Source of the DNA: Methanobacteriaceae archaeon | Lineage (GTDB): Archaea > Methanobacteriota > Methanobacteria > Methanobacteriales > Methanobacteriaceae | Direction of reading: 5' to 3' | DNA length: 45,709 nt | NCBI GenBank assembly: GCA_029219465.1 | Contig: JAQXTL010000019.1 | Location: 1 to 45,709 of the forward strand | Shown: in pieces, positions 7,849 through 20,132 of the stretch | Layout of the letters: each line of letters opens with the position of its first letter | How positions within the stretch are numbered: position 1 is the stretch's first letter | Made by a program: the position numbers and the translations under genes | Notes under the pieces: model-generated | The model's database searches: none | What the model was told of the DNA's origin: nothing | Seen by the model: the letters and a program-made list of their open reading frames with translations, nothing else

Positions 7849-9084
7849 ATGAAATTTGCACATTTAGCAGACACTCATTTAGGTTATCGCCAATTTGGAT
7901 TAATTGAGCGTGAAAAGGACTTCTATGAAGTGTTTGAAAAGGTTATAGATAAAATAATTGAAGAAAAAGTAGATTTTGTAATACATAGTGGAGATCTATT
8001 TGAAACCGCAAAACCATCTCCCAATGCACTTTTAGCCTTCCAAAAAGGTTTACTCAAATTAAAAGGTGCAGGAATTACTATGTATGCAATTGCAGGAAAT
8101 CATGATTCAGTAATGCGTAAAGGAGCAATTCCTCCTCAAGTAATATTTAAAAAATTAGGTCTAAAAGTTATTAGTCCTATTAATCCGTTTTATGTTCACG
8201 GAGATTTATTTATTGCAGGATTGCCTTTTTATCCAGCATCACAAAGTAAATTATTGAAATCAAAATTAGCAGAATTATCTAAAAAAGCAGCTAATTACGA
8301 AAAATCAGTCTTAGTATTGCATCAAGGTATTGATAAGTACTTTGGATATCAATATGAATTGGAACTTGGTGATGTGCCAGATAATTTCAGCTATTATGCA
8401 CTAGGTCACGTTCACAAATATGTCAATGATAGTTTTGGTAATGGAAGATTAGTTTATCCTGGTTCTACTGAAATTTGGAAGACTGATGAGCTTGAAGATT
8501 ATAAAAATAATGGTAAAGGCTGTGTGATTGTTGATTTTGATGGTCCAAAACCAGTTATTAAAAGACTCAGTATTGATGCAGGTCGTGAATTTATTATAAG
8601 GACAATTGATTATAATAAATTAGAAAGCAATGTTGCGGGTATTAAAGAAATCATCAAAGACTTCGATAAAAAACCTATCTTGGATTTAACAATTAAAAAT
8701 GTTGATGGAAATACCAAAGACATTTATGAAATTATCAATAATGAATTAGGTGATTTAGCTTTAATGATTAGACCTAAATTTGAAATTATTGATGAAAATA
8801 GAACTGGTGATCCACCTTTCCCTGGTTCTGTTGGTCCTAAAGAATTAATTGTTGAACAATTAGAAAAATACAACGATAAAAATGTTGAGCAATTTGCTTT
8901 AGAATTATATGACTTTTTATCCAAGGATAAAAATGGTGAGTCTAAGGAATTAGTTCATCAGTTTTTCAACGACCATTATTCTAAAAATCCTAAATATTGT
9001 AATGTTGAAGAAGTAGAAGAAATTGAAGTTCCTAAAAAAGAATCTGGGGATATTCAAGTAACATTTAACGAGGTTTTAAAATGA
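7849..9084 (+). CDS. mre11: Mre11 DNA double-strand break nuclease
   Basis: Mre11 is the exo/endonuclease partner of Rad50. All phosphoesterase motifs are present in the 411-residue product: ADTHLG at the N-terminus, IHSGDLFE, AIAGNHDS, VLHQGID and ALGHVHKY, which together hold the two manganese ions. The C-terminal part (about 300-411) is the capping and Rad50-binding region. The gene has its own promoter region: a TTTAAATA-type and TTTATAAAG stretch lies between 7760 and 7810. The start follows AAGGT. Its stop overlaps the rad50 start in an ATGA, so the complex subunits are translationally coupled. The gene is intact, and the family call is secure. Confidence 0.96.
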   Translation: MKFAHLADTHLGYRQFGLIEREKDFYEVFEKVIDKIIEEKVDFVIHSGDLFETAKPSPNALLAFQKGLLKLKGAGITMYAIAGNHDSVMRKGAIPPQVIFKKLGLKVISPINPFYVHGDLFIAGLPFYPASQSKLLKSKLAELSKKAANYEKSVLVLHQGIDKYFGYQYELELGDVPDNFSYYALGHVHKYVNDSFGNGRLVYPGSTEIWKTDELEDYKNNGKGCVIVDFDGPKPVIKRLSIDAGREFIIRTIDYNKLESNVAGIKEIIKDFDKKPILDLTIKNVDGNTKDIYEIINNELGDLALMIRPKFEIIDENRTGDPPFPGSVGPKELIVEQLEKYNDKNVEQFALELYDFLSKDKNGESKELVHQFFNDHYSKNPKYCNVEEVEEIEVPKKESGDIQVTFNEVLK

Positions 9085-11834
9085 TTTTCACAAAATTAAG
9101 ATTAAGAAATTTTAAATCTCATGAAGACACTATCATTCGCTTTAAGAAGGGAATTAGTGTAATTGTTGGTGAAAACGGTGCAGGAAAATCAACAATTTTA
9201 GAAGGAATTAGCTTTGCTTTATTTAAACAACACACTGCTAAAAAGATTGATGATTTAGTTAGAAACAATGCACAGACTATGACTATTGAATTAGAATTTA
9301 TTTCTAATGGAAAACAATACAAAATAATTCGTGAGAAAAAATCAAATTTAAAATCTTCAATTTATAAAAGAACTTCAACTGATGGGGACTTTGTCCATAT
9401 CTGTACAGGAGATAAAGAAGTAGCAAGTGAAATCCAACAAATCTTGGATATTGATTCTGATTTGTTCTTAAATGCAATTTACATCAGACAAGGAGAAATT
9501 GCAGAGCTTGTTGATAAAACTCCTGCTGAGAAAAAACAGTTAATTGCTAAGTTACTTGGAATTGATTCATTAGAAAAGTCATGGAAAAACTTATTGCCAT
9601 TTATTAATGATTATGAAAATCAGTTAGCTGAACTTAAAGGTAAACTTTACAATTCAGATAAATTAGCTGAAGAATTAGATCAAAAACGTGCTGAATTATC
9701 TTCATTAAGAAAAAGAGGTCTTGAACTTGAGAATCATATTAGTGAAGTAAAAGAATTACTCCAAGACATATCTGCTGGTAAAAGAGATATGGAAAGAGAA
9801 AAAGAAATATATGAAACTCAAATCAATAACCTCAAAAATGAAGAAAAAACATTATCTAAACTTGAAAATGATAAACATACAATTCATGAAAACTTAGATA
9901 AAATCAGAGAAGCTGAAGAACAAATTGTTCGTTTAGAGAAATTTGTTTCTAAATTGGATGTTTATTTGGACTTTGAAAAATCAGTACTCAGTATCCAAAA
10001 CTTAAAAGAAAACGAAGCTGAAATATATGATAAATTAGATTCAATATCTGAACAAAAACAACTTATTGCCGATAATAAGGAAAATTACAGTAAGTTTTTA
10101 GCATTTGAAGAGGAAATTGAGAAATATAACAATCAAAAACTCAGTTTCGAAAAAGAACTAGCTACAATGACTAAGCTTGATAAGGATAAAAAAGACTTAT
10201 TTAGTGAAATTGAATCTGAACGTAATGATATCAACAAGTTCTTTGTTAGAGCTAAAGAGAAATTAGAATACAATGGATTAGACCAGGATGTATTGGCTAA
10301 AGTTGATGATTTCAATGTTATTGAAGAAGCTACTAATGACTTTTTAGATGAAATTAATAGCAAAATTAAAACTTTATCTGAAGATATTGCGTCTAAAAAA
10401 GAAGAGATTGTAGTATTTAAACAAAATATTAAATCTAGTGAAAAATCATTAAATGAGTTAAATGATGCTTCAGATAATAAATGTCCTGTTTGTCAATCTG
10501 ATATTGATGATGCTAAAAAAGCAGATTTAGTAAAACAATATCAGGATATTATTGATGAGAATTCTCATTCAATATCTGATTATGAAGAAGCTGTTGAATT
10601 ACTTAGCAAAAATAAATCAAGTTTTGAAGTAAAACATGAAAGAATTACTGAGTTATCAAAAAATATTGATTTGTATAAACACAGATTTGACCATTTAAAC
10701 AATCATATGGCTGATAAATTAAAGAAACTTGATTCAGAACTCGAATCCAAAGATTTCATCAGCGGTAAACTTGGTGAATTATTACTTGTTATTTCTAATA
10801 AGAAAATTGAAAGAGAATCTTATCAGGAATCTTATGATACATATATCCAAGCAAAAGGTGCATTAGAAGTTTTAGGTAATGAAACTGATATTCAATTCAA
10901 ATTAAAACAGGTTCAAAATGAAATTGATAATCATGTTACCAATATTAAGAATGCAATTAAATTAGATCCTCATTTAACTGGTGATATTACTGCTTCAGAA
11001 CTTCAAAGCCGTATTGCTGATTTAAAACAGAAAAATGAAGAATACAATCAACTTAAAGGATTTATTAAAAACAAACAGTCATATTTAACTCAGCTTGATT
11101 CTGTAAAAGAAGATATTGGGTTGTCAATTAATCAAATTGATATTATTAAAAACAAAATCCAAGCATGTTCTTATGATGTAGATAAATATGAACACATTAT
11201 TTATCGCTCTGAGGTATATGAAAGAAAATACAACACATTCAATGATGAACTTAATACAATCAAAGGTCAAGCACGTGAAACAATTGCTTATGTAAATGAT
11301 TTAAGTTCAAGAGTTGAATCAATTAATAAATTCCAGCAAGAATATGATAATGTTTCTGATTATATTAACTTATTAAGCCATATTAGAAACATATACAGTA
11401 AAAATGGTATCCAAAGAGATTTAAGAAATATTTCAAGACCATTAATCCAAAAATACACAAAAGAATTCTTCAATGAATTCAATTTCAACTATTCTGACTT
11501 AACTCTTGATGATGAATATGATGTAACTGTTTATGGTCCTGAAGGTGAATCATCAATGACTATGGTTAGTGGTGGTGAAAAAATAGCTATTGCTCTAGCT
11601 TTAAGACTTGGAATCACTCAAGCTATGTCTAATGGTGAATTAGATACTATTTTACTCGATGAACCTACTATTCATTTAGATTCTTCAAGAAGACATGAGT
11701 TAATTAATTTATTAAAAGAAATATCTTCATTACCACAAATGATTATTGTAACTCATGAGCCTCAGCTTGAAAATGCAGCTGATAATTTAATAAAAGTAGA
11801 AAAAGTGAATGGTATATCAAAAGTAATAATTTAA
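9081..11834 (+). CDS. rad50: Rad50 SMC-like ATPase with zinc hook
   Basis: Rad50 clamps and tethers DNA ends for Mre11. The 917-residue protein begins with the N-terminal ATPase lobe (FKSHEDTIIRF; Walker A GENGAGKST at 30-38), a Q-loop region with AIYIRQGEIAELVDKTPAEKK, and a long coiled coil interrupted by the zinc hook CPVC at 468-471. The C-terminal lobe has the signature VSGGEKIAIALALRLG and Walker B TILLDEPTIHLD, then VTHEPQLE. Length and symmetry of the coils around the hook are normal. The start codon shares bases with the mre11 stop, preceded by GAGGTT. It converges on the TIR-like gene across a short T-rich gap. Confidence 0.97.
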   Translation: MIFTKLRLRNFKSHEDTIIRFKKGISVIVGENGAGKSTILEGISFALFKQHTAKKIDDLVRNNAQTMTIELEFISNGKQYKIIREKKSNLKSSIYKRTSTDGDFVHICTGDKEVASEIQQILDIDSDLFLNAIYIRQGEIAELVDKTPAEKKQLIAKLLGIDSLEKSWKNLLPFINDYENQLAELKGKLYNSDKLAEELDQKRAELSSLRKRGLELENHISEVKELLQDISAGKRDMEREKEIYETQINNLKNEEKTLSKLENDKHTIHENLDKIREAEEQIVRLEKFVSKLDVYLDFEKSVLSIQNLKENEAEIYDKLDSISEQKQLIADNKENYSKFLAFEEEIEKYNNQKLSFEKELATMTKLDKDKKDLFSEIESERNDINKFFVRAKEKLEYNGLDQDVLAKVDDFNVIEEATNDFLDEINSKIKTLSEDIASKKEEIVVFKQNIKSSEKSLNELNDASDNKCPVCQSDIDDAKKADLVKQYQDIIDENSHSISDYEEAVELLSKNKSSFEVKHERITELSKNIDLYKHRFDHLNNHMADKLKKLDSELESKDFISGKLGELLLVISNKKIERESYQESYDTYIQAKGALEVLGNETDIQFKLKQVQNEIDNHVTNIKNAIKLDPHLTGDITASELQSRIADLKQKNEEYNQLKGFIKNKQSYLTQLDSVKEDIGLSINQIDIIKNKIQACSYDVDKYEHIIYRSEVYERKYNTFNDELNTIKGQARETIAYVNDLSSRVESINKFQQEYDNVSDYINLLSHIRNIYSKNGIQRDLRNISRPLIQKYTKEFFNEFNFNYSDLTLDDEYDVTVYGPEGESSMTMVSGGEKIAIALALRLGITQAMSNGELDTILLDEPTIHLDSSRRHELINLLKEISSLPQMIIVTHEPQLENAADNLIKVEKVNGISKVII

Positions 11835-11860: not shown

Positions 11861-12256
11861 TTACATGGTTTCTGGTGCATCTTTAATTGAATCAATTATA
11901 CAATTTGCATTCCATCCGACAATGGTTGCAGCTTTTTCTTCTAATTCTAATGGTACTGCTTCACTGCCTAATGGTCTAACTAAGACAATTGGTATTTCAT
12001 ATTGTTCACTAGCAGCTAATAATTCTTCAAAAAGCTCTTTATTATCATTATAAAGTCCTGCTAATAAGATAATTCTATCAACTTTTTTATAAAACTCTTC
12101 TCCAGCAGTAGCATAAGATCCAGACATTGATTCTTTCCATAAGAAATTTGCTTTTGAATATAATTTTTCAGTAAACATACCATATTCTTTGTTTTTGTCA
12201 AATCCGCTTGTAATAATTAAATTGTAAATCTTATCGTCTCTTTCATCTTCAAACAT
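11861..12256 (-). CDS. Stand-alone TIR-like protein (MTH538/ThsB-type domain)
   Basis: A 131-residue protein made of a single flavodoxin/TIR-like domain. The pattern fits the MTH538 TIR-like family (PF08937, which also holds the Thoeris sensor ThsB): YNLIITSGFD as first strand (11-20), VDRIILLAGLY (59-69), KELFEELLAASEQ (73-85) where Glu77 or Glu78 would occupy the position of the TIR catalytic or signature glutamate, PIVLVRPLGSEAVP (89-102), and the closing IVGWNANCIIDSI (112-124), a hallmark of the family. The start follows AGGTGAG. No ThsA-like effector or other defence gene is adjacent; the neighbour is rad50, convergent. Enzymatic activity is unproven and the name rests on motif recall. 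Confidence 0.68.
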   Translation of the reverse strand: MFEDERDDKIYNLIITSGFDKNKEYGMFTEKLYSKANFLWKESMSGSYATAGEEFYKKVDRIILLAGLYNDNKELFEELLAASEQYEIPIVLVRPLGSEAVPLELEEKAATIVGWNANCIIDSIKDAPETM

Positions 12257-12360: not shown

Positions 12361-13641
12361 ATGAAAGCAGCAGTAATAGGTTTAGGCGTAGAAGGAAAAA
12401 AGGCAGTTAATTCTCTTTTAAAACATGATTGGGAAGTTTATGCTACTGATTTGAATATTAATGTAGATTTAGATGGATTAGATTTACCAAATTTATCATT
12501 AAATGTTATTGATGATAATCAAACAGTTTCAATTGTTGGAGATAGAATAAATATGGATTTGGGTTTTACAAATCCTAATGCGATTGAACAGTGTGATGCA
12601 GTAGCAATTAGTCCTAGTATGTTTGGAGGAGAATTTGCAACTAAATTGTTAAAAAATTCAAAATTATTAAGCGATATTGTAGATAAACATAAAGACATTT
12701 TCACAATTGGTATTACTGGAACAAACGGTAAAACAACCACTGTTCATATGATAAAAGAGATTTTAGAAAATGCCGGTAAAAAAGTTTTAGTCGGTGGTAA
12801 TGGTGGTGGAGGCTTTTCAGGATATTATGATTTGATTCTTGAAGCTAATGAGGATGAATATGATGTTTTACTTGTAGAAGTATGTGATATGACTCTTGAT
12901 TTTTGTAAGTATTGCTTTGATTTTGACATGATTGGTCTTACTAACATTGGTAATGACCATATGAATGTTCATAAAACCATTGCTAATTATAAAGATTCTC
13001 TAGTTAGATTTTTTGAAGCAAAAACCGTATTTACTGCATTTGATCAGGATTTCAATGCTGATTTCAAACAATCCAGTGATAAACACATAAACTATTTCGA
13101 ATATCAGGATGAATTGAAACTATTTGGTAAGTTTAATTTGCTTAATGCAGGTCTTGCAACAGCAATTGCAAAAGAACTTAAAATTCCTAAAGATGTTATT
13201 AAATCAACACTTTCACAGTTTAGTGCAGTTGAAGGAAGATTAGATGTTTATAAAATCAACAGTGCTTCTGTATATGTTGGAAAAACTGATAATTCTGATG
13301 CATTAGAGTCCATTTTATCTGAAAGAGATTTTTATGCTGTATTTATAGGAACTCCTCGCCACAATGAAACTCACAGATTAGATATTTTAGATGTTGCTGT
13401 TAAATATGATCCTGAAGTCATTGTTTTATTCCCAGGATTAGATGATACATTGGATATGGCGATTTATAGGCTTAATTCTCTTGGATATATGGGAAATATC
13501 ATTACAGTAAATTCTCTTGATGAAATTATAGCATTGGTTGCAGAGTATTCACATGAAGATGCAATTTTAATTGGTGGTAATGGTCAAGAAAATATTATAA
13601 ATATTCAAGAGAGAATTAAATTGATTTCTGAAAAATTATAG
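12361..13641 (+). CDS. Mur ligase family protein, probable pseudomurein peptide ligase
   Basis: A 426-residue ATP-dependent amide ligase of the Mur superfamily. It has an N-terminal Rossmann-like domain (AAVIGLGVEGKKAV, then YATDLN), Walker A GTNGKTT at 120-126, a LTNIGNDHMNVH segment equal to the DHxxxH region of MurD, and VEGRLDV at the start of the C-terminal domain, followed by YVGKTDNSDAL where bacterial enzymes have DDYNANPD. Pseudomurein-walled methanogens use such ligases to build the interpeptide from L-amino acids. An exported protein with a VanW-like tail follows. Other Mur-like archaeal ligases exist (CfbE of coenzyme F430, MurT-like), so the substrate is inferred. It starts at an ATG after AAGGA, divergent from the TIR-like gene. 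Confidence 0.72.
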   Translation: MKAAVIGLGVEGKKAVNSLLKHDWEVYATDLNINVDLDGLDLPNLSLNVIDDNQTVSIVGDRINMDLGFTNPNAIEQCDAVAISPSMFGGEFATKLLKNSKLLSDIVDKHKDIFTIGITGTNGKTTTVHMIKEILENAGKKVLVGGNGGGGFSGYYDLILEANEDEYDVLLVEVCDMTLDFCKYCFDFDMIGLTNIGNDHMNVHKTIANYKDSLVRFFEAKTVFTAFDQDFNADFKQSSDKHINYFEYQDELKLFGKFNLLNAGLATAIAKELKIPKDVIKSTLSQFSAVEGRLDVYKINSASVYVGKTDNSDALESILSERDFYAVFIGTPRHNETHRLDILDVAVKYDPEVIVLFPGLDDTLDMAIYRLNSLGYMGNIITVNSLDEIIALVAEYSHEDAILIGGNGQENIINIQERIKLISEKL

Positions 13642-13731: not shown

Positions 13732-14919
13732 ATGAGTAGAAGTTGGAGAAAAATTTCACTTACAATAATTTTATCATTGGCAATTTTAAGTATAGTATTT
13801 GCTGCATTGGGAGCAGCATCTAATGTTTCTTATAATGCTCATGGTATTGCTGAAGAATATAAACTTCCTATTGGTCAATCAATGTTTGAAAATCAATCTA
13901 TTTTAGGTCAAAGAGAACCAATTACTGTTCCATTTATATCTAATGTTGGATTTTTAGCTCATCAAATTCAAGCATTAGATATTCAAGGGATAATATTAAC
14001 ATTAAATACTGGTATGGTTCCATTTGATTTTTCAACTATCTCTGGTGAGGGTATTGATTCATACGGTAATGTAGTTAATGTTAAAGGACCTGGATTTTTA
14101 ACCTATGAAGGTGACAAGTTAGTTGTAAAATCACCTGATCATTATGTATGGGGTTACAGTGCTCCTTATAAATGGTTGGTTAAAACAGAAACTGGAGTAG
14201 ATGTTGTAGAAAATGGTACTGTAATAAAATCTGTACCTGCAGAAGAAATTAAAAACTTAGAATATAAAAATGACTATTATAATGCAAGTACTATTGCATC
14301 ATGGTATAATCATGATTCAGCTGTAGATGCTACATTTACTTTAGAAAAAGGAATGAGTGGATTTTCTGATGGAAGAAACAATATCAGTGCTTCTGATGTA
14401 CCAAAAATATTTGGTCAGGATGTTGTAGATTATGCTTCTGAATATCCAACTGGTTCTCCAATTTTATTATACTCTGGAAATTATACTGAAGAAGCTGGTG
14501 AAGCATATTCAACTTACCTTGGTTCTCACCCAGAATATGGTGATGGAATTAGAGAAATAAACGCAAGACAATTTGTTTTTGCATGGAACGGAACTGTAAT
14601 CCCACCTAACTCAACTTCAAGCGGTAAAGACTATGTTTACTTTGAATCTGCTAGTGATTCAAATGCACCTGGTGGAAGTGCATCCCATGGTGTATGTCCT
14701 CCTGCTAGAACATTAAGAGCAGCTGTTACTGCTGAAGGTTTCGATTTACCTGTTGGTATGTGCTGGGATGAAGATGCAGTTTTATTCGGATATAACCCTG
14801 CACAAGGAATCTATGTAACAAATAACCATGATTATCCAGTAAAAATCAACATGTGGACTGAAGGTGAAGGTACTGGAATGGCAATTTACTGTCAAATTGT
14901 AAGATATGTTCCAACTTAA
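13732..14919 (+). CDS. Exported protein with VanW-like C-terminal region
   Basis: A 395-residue protein with a basic N-terminus (MSRSWRK) and one hydrophobic signal/anchor (about residues 8-30). The rest is predicted outside the cell and contains several NxT/S sites. The middle is not recognised. The final ~90 residues resemble the VanW domain by order of elements: a small Gly/Ser loop then HGVC (Cys322) ahead of RTLRAAVTAEGFDL, a DEDAV segment, VTNNHDYPVKINMW and a last strand with Cys387. VanW itself has GGGxCQ, TLYNAA, DATV, NNTxYPI in that order. If right, it is a cell-wall protein, which suits the Mur ligase next to it. The start follows AAGGTG. The remote similarity is judged by eye. 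Confidence 0.6.
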   Translation: MSRSWRKISLTIILSLAILSIVFAALGAASNVSYNAHGIAEEYKLPIGQSMFENQSILGQREPITVPFISNVGFLAHQIQALDIQGIILTLNTGMVPFDFSTISGEGIDSYGNVVNVKGPGFLTYEGDKLVVKSPDHYVWGYSAPYKWLVKTETGVDVVENGTVIKSVPAEEIKNLEYKNDYYNASTIASWYNHDSAVDATFTLEKGMSGFSDGRNNISASDVPKIFGQDVVDYASEYPTGSPILLYSGNYTEEAGEAYSTYLGSHPEYGDGIREINARQFVFAWNGTVIPPNSTSSGKDYVYFESASDSNAPGGSASHGVCPPARTLRAAVTAEGFDLPVGMCWDEDAVLFGYNPAQGIYVTNNHDYPVKINMWTEGEGTGMAIYCQIVRYVPT

Positions 14920-14947: not shown

Positions 14948-15601
14948 ATGTCAATTTCAACTATTATTACTGCAGCTGGAAAGAATTCCAGAATGAGAAA
15001 AGATTTAATTTCTCGTAACTTAGAATTAAAAAATAAACTTGTTTTACCATTTGAAGATAAAACTGTTATAGAGACAACTATTGATAATGCATTATCTGCA
15101 AATGTAGATGAATGTATTGTTGTACTTGGTCACTATGCATCCGAAATAAAAGAAGCTATTTTTGATAATTATGATGGTTTAGTTAAATTTATCACTAATG
15201 ATCCAGTTGATGTAGGTTTATCAGTATCACTTTACAATGGTTTATCAAATATCGATTCTGATTTTGCATTATGTATAACTGCAGACCAACCTACTGTGTC
15301 AAGTGAAACATTCAATAAATTAATTGAAGTAAGTCAGGATGCACAAGATCCATTTCACACAATTTCTATTTTAAGAAGAAGAAAAACAGGCTTATTGGAT
15401 ACAGCTGAAGGATTAGGTATGCCTTTTATTGCTCCACGCTTAAATTTAATGAAATACTTAGAAAACGAAAATGATAACCTAAATCCTATCTTAAGAAAAA
15501 TATTTGCTGATGGTTATACATTTTATGGAATAAAAGAAAAAAATGAAAAAGAGTTACTAAATATCAATCATTACGATGATTATTTAGCATTATTAGATTG
15601 A
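14948..15601 (+). CDS. MobA-like nucleotidyltransferase
   Basis: A 217-residue NTP-transferase of the MobA/MocA type. The N-terminal STIITAAGKNSRM loop is the nucleotide-binding motif; IVVLGHYASEI and CITADQPTV follow, the latter with the metal-binding Asp. AEGLGMPFIAP corresponds to the substrate loop of the family. I place the start at the ATG 14948, which gives the usual short start before the GxG loop; a longer frame opens inside the previous gene at 14906. No good Shine-Dalgarno site is near, and T-rich bases precede it. Activity could be pterin-cofactor cytidylylation or sugar/alditol nucleotide synthesis; nothing nearby decides. The 3' end overlaps the convergent DUF169 gene by nine bases. 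Confidence 0.7.
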   Translation: MSISTIITAAGKNSRMRKDLISRNLELKNKLVLPFEDKTVIETTIDNALSANVDECIVVLGHYASEIKEAIFDNYDGLVKFITNDPVDVGLSVSLYNGLSNIDSDFALCITADQPTVSSETFNKLIEVSQDAQDPFHTISILRRRKTGLLDTAEGLGMPFIAPRLNLMKYLENENDNLNPILRKIFADGYTFYGIKEKNEKELLNINHYDDYLALLD

Positions 15602-16293: not shown

Positions 16294-17529
16294 TTATGGA
16301 ATTTTAAAGTTTTTTGTATTAACAGTGTTATTTTTACAGAATGTTTTAAAATCACAAGCAGAACAGGTTCTTTCGTCTGAATCACCTTTCCAAGCGTCCT
16401 GAATTTTAGATCCTTTCATTTCTTTAATCATTGATTCTTCAATATCTGCAACAACACTATCAAATTTTAATAAAGCTTCATTTCTTGCATCTTCATTAAC
16501 ATTTATAATTCTAATAGATCTGTTCTGTTTAAAGCCATTGCTTAATTCTGGTGCTTTTTCATCTTCCTGCCAGTTATTAATTAAATCAATGTCTTTATCA
16601 TATTCATATCCAACGTCTGTCAAACCAGTATTCAATTCTTCTTTAATTAAAACTAAATCCTCTTTTGACGGAACTAATTCATTTAAATAAAATATAATTC
16701 CAGCAATTATTGGCTTTGAAGATTCCTGTTGTGATCTAAGCCATGAATAAGTTAAAATCTGCTGTTTATGTGTTTCCCAGCTATTTTCAACTTTAGAATT
16801 ATTAACTTCAACTGGGGGTCTTTTCATTCCTTTATAATCAATAATTATTTCATATTCATCTTCATCATCAAATTCAGCAAGTTTTTTTTGAAATTCTTTG
16901 TCTTTTTTAAGATATTGGAGAATTTTATTATCAAAATTGTCCAGATTGCTTTGTTCAACTGTTTTATTGATTTTAAGAGAAGTTAATACATCAACTACAC
17001 CATTAATACCATAATAGTTTGAACGGCTATGATTTTCATCATAATTAGGCATTTTTCTTATACCTTTAATCAAATGTTCTGATGAATCAATTAACGGAAA
17101 TAAATCCTTTCCCCAAATGTTAATAGCTTTTTCTGCTCTTGCACTTGCTAATTTCTTATGGTCATGTTCATTTAAATCATCAATAGTCCATTCTTCATCT
17201 GGCTGATTGTGAATACTGAAAAATAAATCTTCATCGTGGGAATATAATCCTCTAACCTGCAGTCTTAAATCAATTAAGTCTTCAATTGGTCTTATGTCCT
17301 TTTTCCAGTCCCAAGGGAATTGTGTGTTATTTTCATTCCATTGAATATATGCTTCTTCAATTACACCGTGAATAAATTCACCAAACCATCTTTGAACTGG
17401 CTTTGAAGGAGGTAGTGTTCCTTTATTTTGATATCTGTATTGTAAATTACATGTTAAATAAGATAATAAATCTCCAGTTACACTATATTCTGGAATCATG
17501 TATGATTTTGATCTTGATGGTAGTTTCAT
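16294..17529 (-). CDS. PD-(D/E)XK nuclease with Fe-S cluster, AddB/Cas4-like
   Basis: A 411-residue RecB-family nuclease. The motifs appear in order: GEFIHGVIEE (conserved His), YGINGVVDVL (motif with metal-binding Asp), EIIIDYKG (D-x-K), and QQILTYSWL (Q-x3-Y). Four cysteines, Cys27 in YLTCNLQ and the C-terminal C389-x2-C392-x5-C398, match the iron-sulfur staple that holds the nuclease domain of AddB and Cas4 together. The start after AGGAGGT is strong. It follows the UvrD-like helicase gene by 11 bases, so the two likely form a helicase-nuclease for DNA end processing, like bacterial AddAB but with separate nuclease. No CRISPR genes are near, which argues against a Cas4 role. Confidence 0.82.
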   Translation of the reverse strand: MKLPSRSKSYMIPEYSVTGDLLSYLTCNLQYRYQNKGTLPPSKPVQRWFGEFIHGVIEEAYIQWNENNTQFPWDWKKDIRPIEDLIDLRLQVRGLYSHDEDLFFSIHNQPDEEWTIDDLNEHDHKKLASARAEKAINIWGKDLFPLIDSSEHLIKGIRKMPNYDENHSRSNYYGINGVVDVLTSLKINKTVEQSNLDNFDNKILQYLKKDKEFQKKLAEFDDEDEYEIIIDYKGMKRPPVEVNNSKVENSWETHKQQILTYSWLRSQQESSKPIIAGIIFYLNELVPSKEDLVLIKEELNTGLTDVGYEYDKDIDLINNWQEDEKAPELSNGFKQNRSIRIINVNEDARNEALLKFDSVVADIEESMIKEMKGSKIQDAWKGDSDERTCSACDFKTFCKNNTVNTKNFKIP

Positions 17530-17540
17530 GCTAATACCTC

Positions 17541-19979
17541 CTAAATTAAGTAAATCTCTTTAAATCCAATATAGTTTTCATCTCTGCTCCATCCAAGAGC
17601 AACATTTGGAATTTTAAAGTAGTCATTTTTTTGTACATATCCCTCAATAGCTGAATTTAAACCAATTAAAATCAATACTTTCTCTGCTCTTGAAAATGCA
17701 ACAAAATAACGTCTTGTTAAATCATCAAAGGATTTATCTTTTTCACTACGTTTGCTTTGACCTAATTCACTATATTTTCTAATTCTCTCTTCAAGGGTAA
17801 GTTCATTTTTAACTAATTTCGGGAATCTCAAATTCTGGGTTTTAATATTATTTTTATTAAATTTAGATCCCACATCTACAATTACCAATGGAAACTCCAA
17901 TCCTTTTGACTGGTGAATGGATAATACGTTGATTCTATTATCTGGTAGTGTTTCAAGTAGTGTTTCATCAATTTTAACTCCTCCTGAAGAAATTGGTATG
18001 AAAATATTCCAAATAGCTTCAAGAATTGATTCATTTTCCTGTTTTTTATTTTTAAATGAAATATTTGAGTGATATTCATTAAAAAATCCAGTTTGAGTAA
18101 TTGACTGAGTAATAGCTTCTAAATATACAATACCTTCAACATCTTCTTGTAATTCTTCAATCCATGTTGTTATTTTATATGCAAGTTCCATTAAACTGGC
18201 ACTTTTAGGCCACATGTCTTGTCCTTTTGGTTGTCTAAGCTGCCAATGCATTACAAAATCAGATAATGTAATTGGTTCGTGAGGTTCAGGATTTAATTTA
18301 ATGAAATCTCTGGCTTTCACTCTCCACCTATTCATATTAACATTTGCCATTTTTGGTATTGTTTTATCTGAGTTTTGCACTTCTCCAGCAGGATCAATAC
18401 ACTCAAGCATTAAACCGCAAAAAATACTTACAACATGTATATCTTGAAGTTCAATTCCTCTTGGATTAAATACTTCAATAGGATTTCTTAATTTCTTGAG
18501 ATTTTTTCTTAAAAAACTTAAAAATGTTGGTTGACCATGTGTTGTTTCTTTTGGGGAAAATGATAAAATTGCAATATCTGATGCTGAACCGTATTCTCCA
18601 TCAAGTTTAAGTCTTATCTCATCAACCTCTTTTCCTGCTTTAATATTTTCTTCATTTATTTGCTGAAACTTTGCAATATCCAAAGGTTCATTCACCTTTT
18701 TGAAAAATTCTTCATTTAAAATCTTAAGAACTTTTAATTTTGCTTCTCCTTTATTTACAAGCTGGTCAATTAATTTAGCTACATCTTTTGCAAGCATTTT
18801 AGGATTATTTCTAAACATTCCTAAAATAGGCATTTTATCGTTCTCAAAATCAGGTGCAATAATTTTAGGCTTGTTTTCAACTCTTGCATTTTGATATTCC
18901 TTGTCAAGTTCTGCAAACTGATTACAATGGTCAATAATATTTTCTGTTGAACGGTAATTTGTTCTTAAATTGATTTCTTCAACATCTATACCTAGTTTTT
19001 CATGAATACGCTTTTGATAATTAGTAAATAAGTCAACTGTTGCTCCTCTAAATCTGTAAAGGGACTGATCATCATCACCTACAACAGTTATGTTACCATT
19101 ATTTTCCAATGCAGATTTTGCAATTGTAAAGTAGATTTCTTCCTGGAGAAGGTTAGTGTCTTGATATTCATCAATTAATACAATTTTTATTTCGTCTAAA
19201 AAAGTTTCTAAGTCTTTATTTTTTAATTTGGCGAGAAACTCAGATTCTAGCATTGTAAAATCAATAGTATTTCTTGTTTGTAGGGTGTTTTCATATTCTT
19301 TAATACAATCAAGTGCAATGCGAGCCCCACTTCCATCTTCTGTTTTATTATATAATTCATTGAAGTCTACTTTATCATAATAAATTCTATTTTTAATTTC
19401 AAGCAGTACTTCACTTATTTTAGATGGTTCTGTGAGTTTTTCACTGCCACTTACTTCTTTTAAGTATTCAACAAGCTTTTTGTTTCGATACTTTTCGTCT
19501 TCAATGAGGATTTTAATCATTGCAGATGTTGCTACAAAACCTTCAATAACAACGGACTGATTTTCACCAGGTTTTTTATACTCTCTGAGTAATTCTTCTG
19601 CAATACTGTCAGTTGTACCAATTTTAATCTGATTAAAATCAATTTTTATAATTTTTGTGATGGTATTAAAATCATCTGTTGTATCCAGAATATGATTTTT
19701 TATGGTATCTCCCCAACCTAAAATCCTGGAATACAATTCATCAGCCGCTTTTCTTGTAAATGTTGTTGCTAAAATTCTATTTGGTTCAATATCATCTACA
19801 AAAATATATTTTAGCAATTTAAGTACCATTACTGTTGTTTTTCCAGACCCTGGTCCTGCAACAATAAATAATGATTTATCACATGGTGCAATAACAGCAT
19901 TTCTTTGATCAATATTTGAAGAAATATCTCTTTTAAGTATATTGACCACTATATCCTCAAATTCTTCATATGAAATCAT
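17541..19979 (-). CDS. UvrD/AddA-like SF1 DNA helicase
   Basis: A 3'-5' superfamily 1A helicase of about 812 residues. Motifs in order: AGPGSGKTTVM (Walker A), ATTFTRKAADEL (Ia), VLIDEYQDTN (II), VVGDDDQSLYRFRGA (III), LRTNYRSTENI (IV), LSIHQSKGLEFPLVIVD (V), and RRYFVAFSRAEKVLIL (VI). The C-terminus stops soon after motif VI, so it has no nuclease domain of its own; the nuclease is the next gene. I chose ATG 19979, preceded by GAGGG; a longer frame begins at TTG 19991, which overlaps that binding site. It is divergent from the MrfA-like helicase, with about 150 bases between them that should hold both promoters. The helicase call is certain; the AddA grouping rests on the partner. Confidence 0.9.
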   Translation of the reverse strand: MISYEEFEDIVVNILKRDISSNIDQRNAVIAPCDKSLFIVAGPGSGKTTVMVLKLLKYIFVDDIEPNRILATTFTRKAADELYSRILGWGDTIKNHILDTTDDFNTITKIIKIDFNQIKIGTTDSIAEELLREYKKPGENQSVVIEGFVATSAMIKILIEDEKYRNKKLVEYLKEVSGSEKLTEPSKISEVLLEIKNRIYYDKVDFNELYNKTEDGSGARIALDCIKEYENTLQTRNTIDFTMLESEFLAKLKNKDLETFLDEIKIVLIDEYQDTNLLQEEIYFTIAKSALENNGNITVVGDDDQSLYRFRGATVDLFTNYQKRIHEKLGIDVEEINLRTNYRSTENIIDHCNQFAELDKEYQNARVENKPKIIAPDFENDKMPILGMFRNNPKMLAKDVAKLIDQLVNKGEAKLKVLKILNEEFFKKVNEPLDIAKFQQINEENIKAGKEVDEIRLKLDGEYGSASDIAILSFSPKETTHGQPTFLSFLRKNLKKLRNPIEVFNPRGIELQDIHVVSIFCGLMLECIDPAGEVQNSDKTIPKMANVNMNRWRVKARDFIKLNPEPHEPITLSDFVMHWQLRQPKGQDMWPKSASLMELAYKITTWIEELQEDVEGIVYLEAITQSITQTGFFNEYHSNISFKNKKQENESILEAIWNIFIPISSGGVKIDETLLETLPDNRINVLSIHQSKGLEFPLVIVDVGSKFNKNNIKTQNLRFPKLVKNELTLEERIRKYSELGQSKRSEKDKSFDDLTRRYFVAFSRAEKVLILIGLNSAIEGYVQKNDYFKIPNVALGWSRDENYIGFKEIYLI

Positions 19980-20132
19980 ATTTTCCCTCAAATTTAATAT
20001 AATTTAATTTATGTTTTTTGCATATTATAAAATAATGTTAAGAGCATTTGAAAAGTAAATAGTGAATACTCGAATTATTTAAATATTATTTTGATTAAAA
20101 TATAATTATTAATTTTAATTTTAGCTGGTATT

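Follow-up and report, generated by a model that had tools for sequence, protein, structure and literature searches.

When pseudomurein is cross-linked, a terminal residue is removed and a Glu-Lys link is made, and methanogen genomes contain no homologue of the penicillin-binding proteins (PMC2812497). For the enzyme that makes this cross-link, transglutaminases were only a guess. In Clostridioides difficile, work of 2024 established VanW domains as L,D-transpeptidases (LDTs) that use a triad of Cys, His and a small residue; the centre at which LDTs become acylated is an L-centre (PMC12729407; PMC11986978). Here, we focus on PmurA, a protein of 395 residues with an N-terminal membrane anchor and a VanW-like C-terminal domain. 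It is encoded at 13732..14919 on the + strand of a 45,709-nucleotide stretch of DNA from a Methanobacteriaceae archaeon (contig JAQXTL010000019.1, positions 1 to 45,709), referred to below as the window.

The PmurA family, its gene cluster and its link to pseudomurein are already known. The open reading frame (ORF), which begins with an ATG, matches the NCBIfam model NF053640, "Mfer335 family protein PmurA", with 536.4 bits over 378 of 378 model positions (curated cut-off 400 bits), and it is the single copy of pmurA in the source genome (1.66 Mb, 99.6% complete). By gene position, it corresponds to OG0001147 of pseudomurein cluster B, which was listed as hypothetical, uncharacterized and domainless within a set restricted to pseudomurein archaea (Lupo et al., 2025; PMC11915815). 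Cha et al. (2026; PMC12996149) later named the same protein PMurA and, on the basis of a supposed NTPase domain, guessed at a glutamate kinase. A preliminary description of the window had presented the gene as a possible new link to cell-wall assembly or remodelling. The gene had in fact been tied to pseudomurein by all three of these sources; what is new is the VanW relationship, the outward topology and, with them, a specific catalytic hypothesis. We found no literature linking VanW to pseudomurein or pseudopeptidoglycan, most subscription papers lying outside the searched literature.

Relationship to the bacterial VanW domain

Judged by sequence profiles, the C-terminal ~145 residues of PmurA (residues 250-395; 14479..14916, + strand) are a remote homologue of the bacterial VanW domain, with an hhalign P of about 1e-9. 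Viral contigs and records of environmental plasmids supplied the bacterial VanW proteins for the profiles. When 50 PmurA C-termini were aligned with 17 bacterial VanW domains, hhalign gave a probability of 94.5, a P of 8.1e-8 and a score of 49.8, compared with 20.9 for the best of 60 column shuffles, 12.2 for the reversed control and 14.4 for the N-terminal part of PmurA. With 30 VanW domains, the values were a probability of 96.5, a P of 7.6e-10 and a score of 60.4 over 113-115 aligned columns, whereas none of seven unrelated families encoded in the same loci scored above 18.2. All ten random half-samples gave P < 5e-9, and the identity between the two families is about 22%. The VanW resemblance first noticed by eye in the C-terminus is thus far above chance, although its extent had been drawn too short at ~90 residues (300-395). 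That stretch does match by itself (probability 90, score 39.6; best shuffle 20.8), but the domain is longer, about 250-395. The two parts 250-304 (score 33.8 by itself; best shuffle 15.8) and 305-395 also pair separately with the corresponding halves of VanW.

The Pfam searches give a fainter picture of the same relationship. VanW was matched by more PmurA members than any other family: 6 of the 37 scanned, with a best E of 0.012. Other families were matched by at most three members each, mainly as scattered chance matches. The C-terminal consensus has VanW as its sole match (E 0.0022, 17.9 bits), which is under the gathering score of 27 bits for PF04294. Because the matches stay under this cut-off, PmurA is a remote homologue and not a member of PF04294 as defined. 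The window protein alone has no direct match to PF04294 in a single-sequence Pfam search, so that searches of this kind miss the relationship, and a PDB sequence search with PmurA returned chance matches only. A relationship to YkuD, suggested by an SHGxC motif, was ruled out, with 0 of the 37 members matching YkuD (PF03734) in Pfam.

At the level of predicted structure, the AlphaFold2 (AF2) model of PmurA has a mean pLDDT of 88.8 and values of 87-98 across the last 130 residues. Its C-terminal domain runs from a strand (251-262) and a helix (271-285) through two short strands (288-290 and 294-296) to a second helix (322-334) and three strands (361-364, 370-377 and 384-394). The order of strands and helices is identical in the AF2 model of a VanW protein (strand 132-140, helix 146-159, strands 162-164 and 169-171, helix 204-217, strands 251-253, 260-267 and 270-277), which has extra short elements in between. 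Cys322 is the first residue of the PmurA helix 322-334, and C205 of VanW likewise sits where its counterpart, helix 204-217, starts. The elements named in the preliminary description (the Gly loop with its Cys, the TL..A helix, D-A-V and the N-N-x-x-Y-P strand) do align with VanW counterparts. The same majority residue is found at 16 of 29 conserved VanW positions, including R274, N277, P292, G314, G315, G320, C322, L328, G342 and N364, and where a position is conserved in both families the residue is identical in 9 of 10 cases.

A Foldseek search with the PmurA model found nothing significant in the PDB or among viral models. A PDB profile search for VanW found no VanW chain, and the AF2 model of a genuine VanW had no match in the viral library either; these Foldseek nulls therefore carry no weight. 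It could still be argued that the likeness to VanW is convergence or a chance match of motifs, given the missing Pfam hit for the window protein, the absence of the VanW His and the empty Foldseek result. With scores about three times the best shuffle, two halves that match independently, a shared order of secondary structure, VanW as the most frequent Pfam match and a structural null that is uninformative, this reading is largely refuted and seems to us hardly credible.

Upstream of the VanW-like domain, a middle alpha/beta region (residues 185-247; 14284..14472, + strand) carries the invariant D213 and R215. In topology only, it resembles the region that precedes VanW in bacterial proteins (PG4, wall-binding), with a similar alpha-beta order in the same place; profile comparison gave no sequence match, and homology of the two regions was not supported.

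Membrane anchor and candidate active site

The preliminary description had called the protein exported and anchored. An N-terminal membrane helix is predicted at residues 8-29 (13753..13818, + strand) after a basic N-terminus, and the AF2 model has a helix at residues 3-29. Among the 107 distinct PmurAs on which all conservation counts are based, 106 have this hydrophobic helix and 103 are predicted by charge to be oriented N-in, C-out, with a mean of 2.9 Lys and Arg residues before the helix and 0.7 after it. Because the basic residues precede the helix, the catalytic domain should face outward. The anchor is thus borne out, though the N-terminus is not clearly a cleaved signal. The sole exception among the 107 (locus L034, genome G149) has a split pmurA with the helix in a different frame, leaving its predicted proteins without an anchor. 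Neither a signal peptide nor a membrane segment was predicted for the group by Lupo et al. (2025; PMC11915815), and the split gene may explain the latter.

The same prediction would suit the proposal of Cha et al. (2026), in which PmurA works in the cytoplasm as a glutamate kinase or NTPase and opens the UDP-peptide pathway, as would the finding that recombinant M. ruminantium PMurA broke down ATP (PMC12996149). However, Glu-P, the predicted product, was not detected in that study (PMC12996149). The 37 members matched 13 Pfam families at E <=10, none of which supports an NTPase of the cited kind, and a Walker A motif is absent in 106 of the 107 PmurAs. On these two sequence-based grounds, the NTPase or kinase identity was rejected. 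With an N-terminal membrane helix in all members save the frame-split one, we consider a cytoplasmic kinase very improbable.

The residues invariant in all 107 PmurAs are Cys322, His319, Asp213, Arg215, Arg274, Asn277, Gly315, Gly320, Arg329 and Asn364. Cys322 (codon 14695..14697, + strand) aligns with the catalytic Cys of VanW and is the candidate nucleophile. PmurA has a gap where VanW carries its catalytic His, which there belongs to an HS motif that follows the Cys helix. GGGxCQ, another VanW motif, is not conserved either, being replaced by GG-x-A-[STA]-HG-x-CP. The segment inserted into this Gly loop, absent from VanW, carries His319 (codon 14686..14688, + strand), a candidate catalytic base that may stand in for the lost VanW His.

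A possible role in pseudomurein cross-linking

We propose that PmurA is a membrane-anchored, outward-facing thiol acyltransferase with a VanW-type fold that makes the final peptide cross-links of pseudomurein, a proposal for which we see belief and doubt as evenly balanced. An anchored thiol enzyme of VanW-like type, facing outward and encoded in the core cluster, would suit the vacant cross-linking step. In the proposed mechanism, the N-terminal helix would anchor the protein and, by hydropathy and charge, hold the catalytic part outside. Following the chemistry of VanW and YkuD enzymes, Cys322 would attack the bond before the terminal residue of a stem peptide, freeing that residue and leaving a thioester on the preceding L-residue (Glu). 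His319, a candidate by its invariance only, would take over from the VanW His as base. The thioester would then be resolved by the Lys amine of a neighbouring peptide, giving the Glu-Lys cross-link. Slightly more tentative is the wider claim that PmurA is the long-missing pseudomurein transpeptidase, of bacterial VanW descent or of shared ancestry with VanW, acting on all-L peptides with its catalytic His in the Gly loop.

The genomic setting of PmurA is a wall-building gene cluster. The preliminary description had correctly noted an adjacent Mur ligase: upstream on the + strand, 12361..13641 encodes the pseudomurein peptide ligase pMurD2 (Mur-gamma; NF053647, 627 bits against a curated cut-off of 550), and downstream, also on the + strand, 14948..15601 encodes PmurB, a MobA-like NTP transferase (NF053639, 325 bits, matched from residue 18 of a long ORF). 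The three genes belong to the pseudomurein cluster B defined by Lupo et al. (2025). Their order, pMurD2-PmurA-PmurB, is kept in nearly all loci of Methanobacteria, from Methanobrevibacter to Methanosphaera, and in more distant families pMurD2 lies a few kilobases from PmurA.

The family is matched in 135 of 152 Methanobacteriota genomes and in 0 of 14 control genomes, four of which are archaea without pseudomurein. A scan of 84,980 species gave 88 PmurA loci, and all 80 matches listed are from Methanobacteria or from archaeal metagenome-assembled genomes, the retrieved flanks of the latter carrying genes of the same pmurA neighbourhood. The presence of Methanopyrus within the distribution rests on Lupo et al. 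(2025; PMC11915815). PmurA is thus confined to pseudomurein-walled archaea, the distribution that the preliminary description had named as a check. Its presence there is not without gaps. In two methanogen genera of the same family, g6 (G011-G014, 96-99% complete) and g13 (G132-G137), no PmurA was found by family or profile search to E 10. Every one of these genomes has pMurD2 and nearly all have PmurB (loci L060-L065), and in G014 of g6 the order is pMurD2, another Mur ligase and PmurB, with no room for PmurA. Either another enzyme cross-links in these genera, or PmurA is not the sole cross-linker, or cross-linking is altered.

PmurA is therefore close to universal but falls short of it. This counts more than anything else against an indispensable role, and it is the first of several points that weigh against our proposal. 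The activity of PmurA cannot be assumed, because the VanW His and GGGxCQ are not conserved, and some VanW proteins are themselves without transpeptidase activity (PMC12729407). To these are added the ATP breakdown and absent membrane prediction discussed above, and the existence of a competing class of cross-linker, the transglutaminases.

The points on activity and on loss bear most directly on whether PmurA, as a VanW-like thiol enzyme of the wall, might not be the main cross-linker at all. It could instead trim stem peptides as a carboxypeptidase or endopeptidase, or attach surface proteins to pseudomurein. The VanW homology and the invariant Cys and His would serve this function equally, YkuD enzymes also include carboxypeptidases, endopeptidases and protein-anchoring enzymes (PMC12729407), and loss in two genera is easier to reconcile with an accessory role than with an essential one. 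Unlike typical accessory hydrolases, however, PmurA is near-universal, single-copy and placed in a core cluster beside a precursor ligase and a nucleotidyltransferase. We regard trimming or anchoring as unlikely, though it deserves serious consideration.

The other candidates for the cross-link are the exported transglutaminases (Leahy 2010; Lupo OG0000044), with PmurA left as a non-catalytic scaffold or wall-binding protein. Matches to the transglutaminase core number 5 in the genome of the window, 4-6 in g6 and 2-7 in the other PmurA-bearing genomes tested. Yet the core also occurs in M. jannaschii, H. volcanii and M. acetivorans, none of which makes pseudomurein, and it is missing from 5 of 6 g13 genomes, although these are only 63-93% complete. 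The transglutaminase genes lie outside the pseudomurein clusters, and the invariant set of Cys, His and Arg in PmurA argues for catalysis; we judge this combined reading, transglutaminases with a non-catalytic PmurA, to be improbable.

If PmurA is indeed the cross-linker, murein and pseudomurein would have cross-linking in common, beyond the ligation of precursors by Mur ligases. With a VanW-like candidate whose presumed nucleophile can be named and whose gene lies in the core cluster, the question of cross-linking becomes directly testable. Such a role would also correct the published guess of a glutamate kinase, and it would point to a target on the cell surface for the control of gut methanogens.

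Neighbouring genes and comparison with known systems

Some features around pmurA deserve mention in their own right. The longest ORF for PmurB starts at 14906 and overlaps PmurA; the NF053639 model begins just after the ATG at 14948, which makes this ATG the more probable start. Before pMurD2 lies a divergent gene for a conserved protein of 131 residues (11861-12256, - strand), which matched no Pfam or NCBIfam family and whose position is kept in many relatives, including the PmurA-less g6. On the other side, at 16294-19991 (- strand), an AddA/UvrD-like helicase adjoins a protein with a Cas4-like nuclease domain, possibly an archaeal AddAB-like pair. A Rad50 gene (9081-11834) is found near this pair, and the order of the whole block is conserved in many Methanobrevibacter loci.

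Of the described systems, the VanW LDTs (PF04294; LdtCd4 and LdtCd5 of Clostridioides difficile) come closest to PmurA, with a homologous C-terminal domain, a Cys where the helix following the Gly loop begins and conserved R..N, Pro, Gly and Asn residues. The VanW LDTs are inhibited by meropenem. Both combine an N-terminal membrane helix with a C-terminal catalytic domain, putative in PmurA, in a setting of wall biology. In contrast to these LDTs, PmurA is archaeal, belongs to a pseudomurein wall of L-amino acids, with Glu, Ala and Lys in the native stem peptide, and has neither the VanW His loop nor GGGxCQ, with His319 placed in its Gly-loop insertion. The YkuD LDTs (PF03734) share with PmurA the proposed thiol transpeptidase chemistry and, superficially, the SHGxC motif; they differ in that PmurA has no Pfam match to YkuD and its homology is to VanW. 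The exported methanogen transglutaminases (PF01841; Lupo OG0000044) are rival candidates for the same Glu-Lys cross-link, but they have no detected sequence relationship to PmurA and differ from it in genomic location and in their spread to archaea without pseudomurein. Within the PmurA/Mfer335 family itself, the window protein is a full member in the same cluster. Earlier accounts gave the family no domain, or took it for a putative NTPase or glutamate kinase; the present one adds a VanW-like domain and a predicted outward topology.
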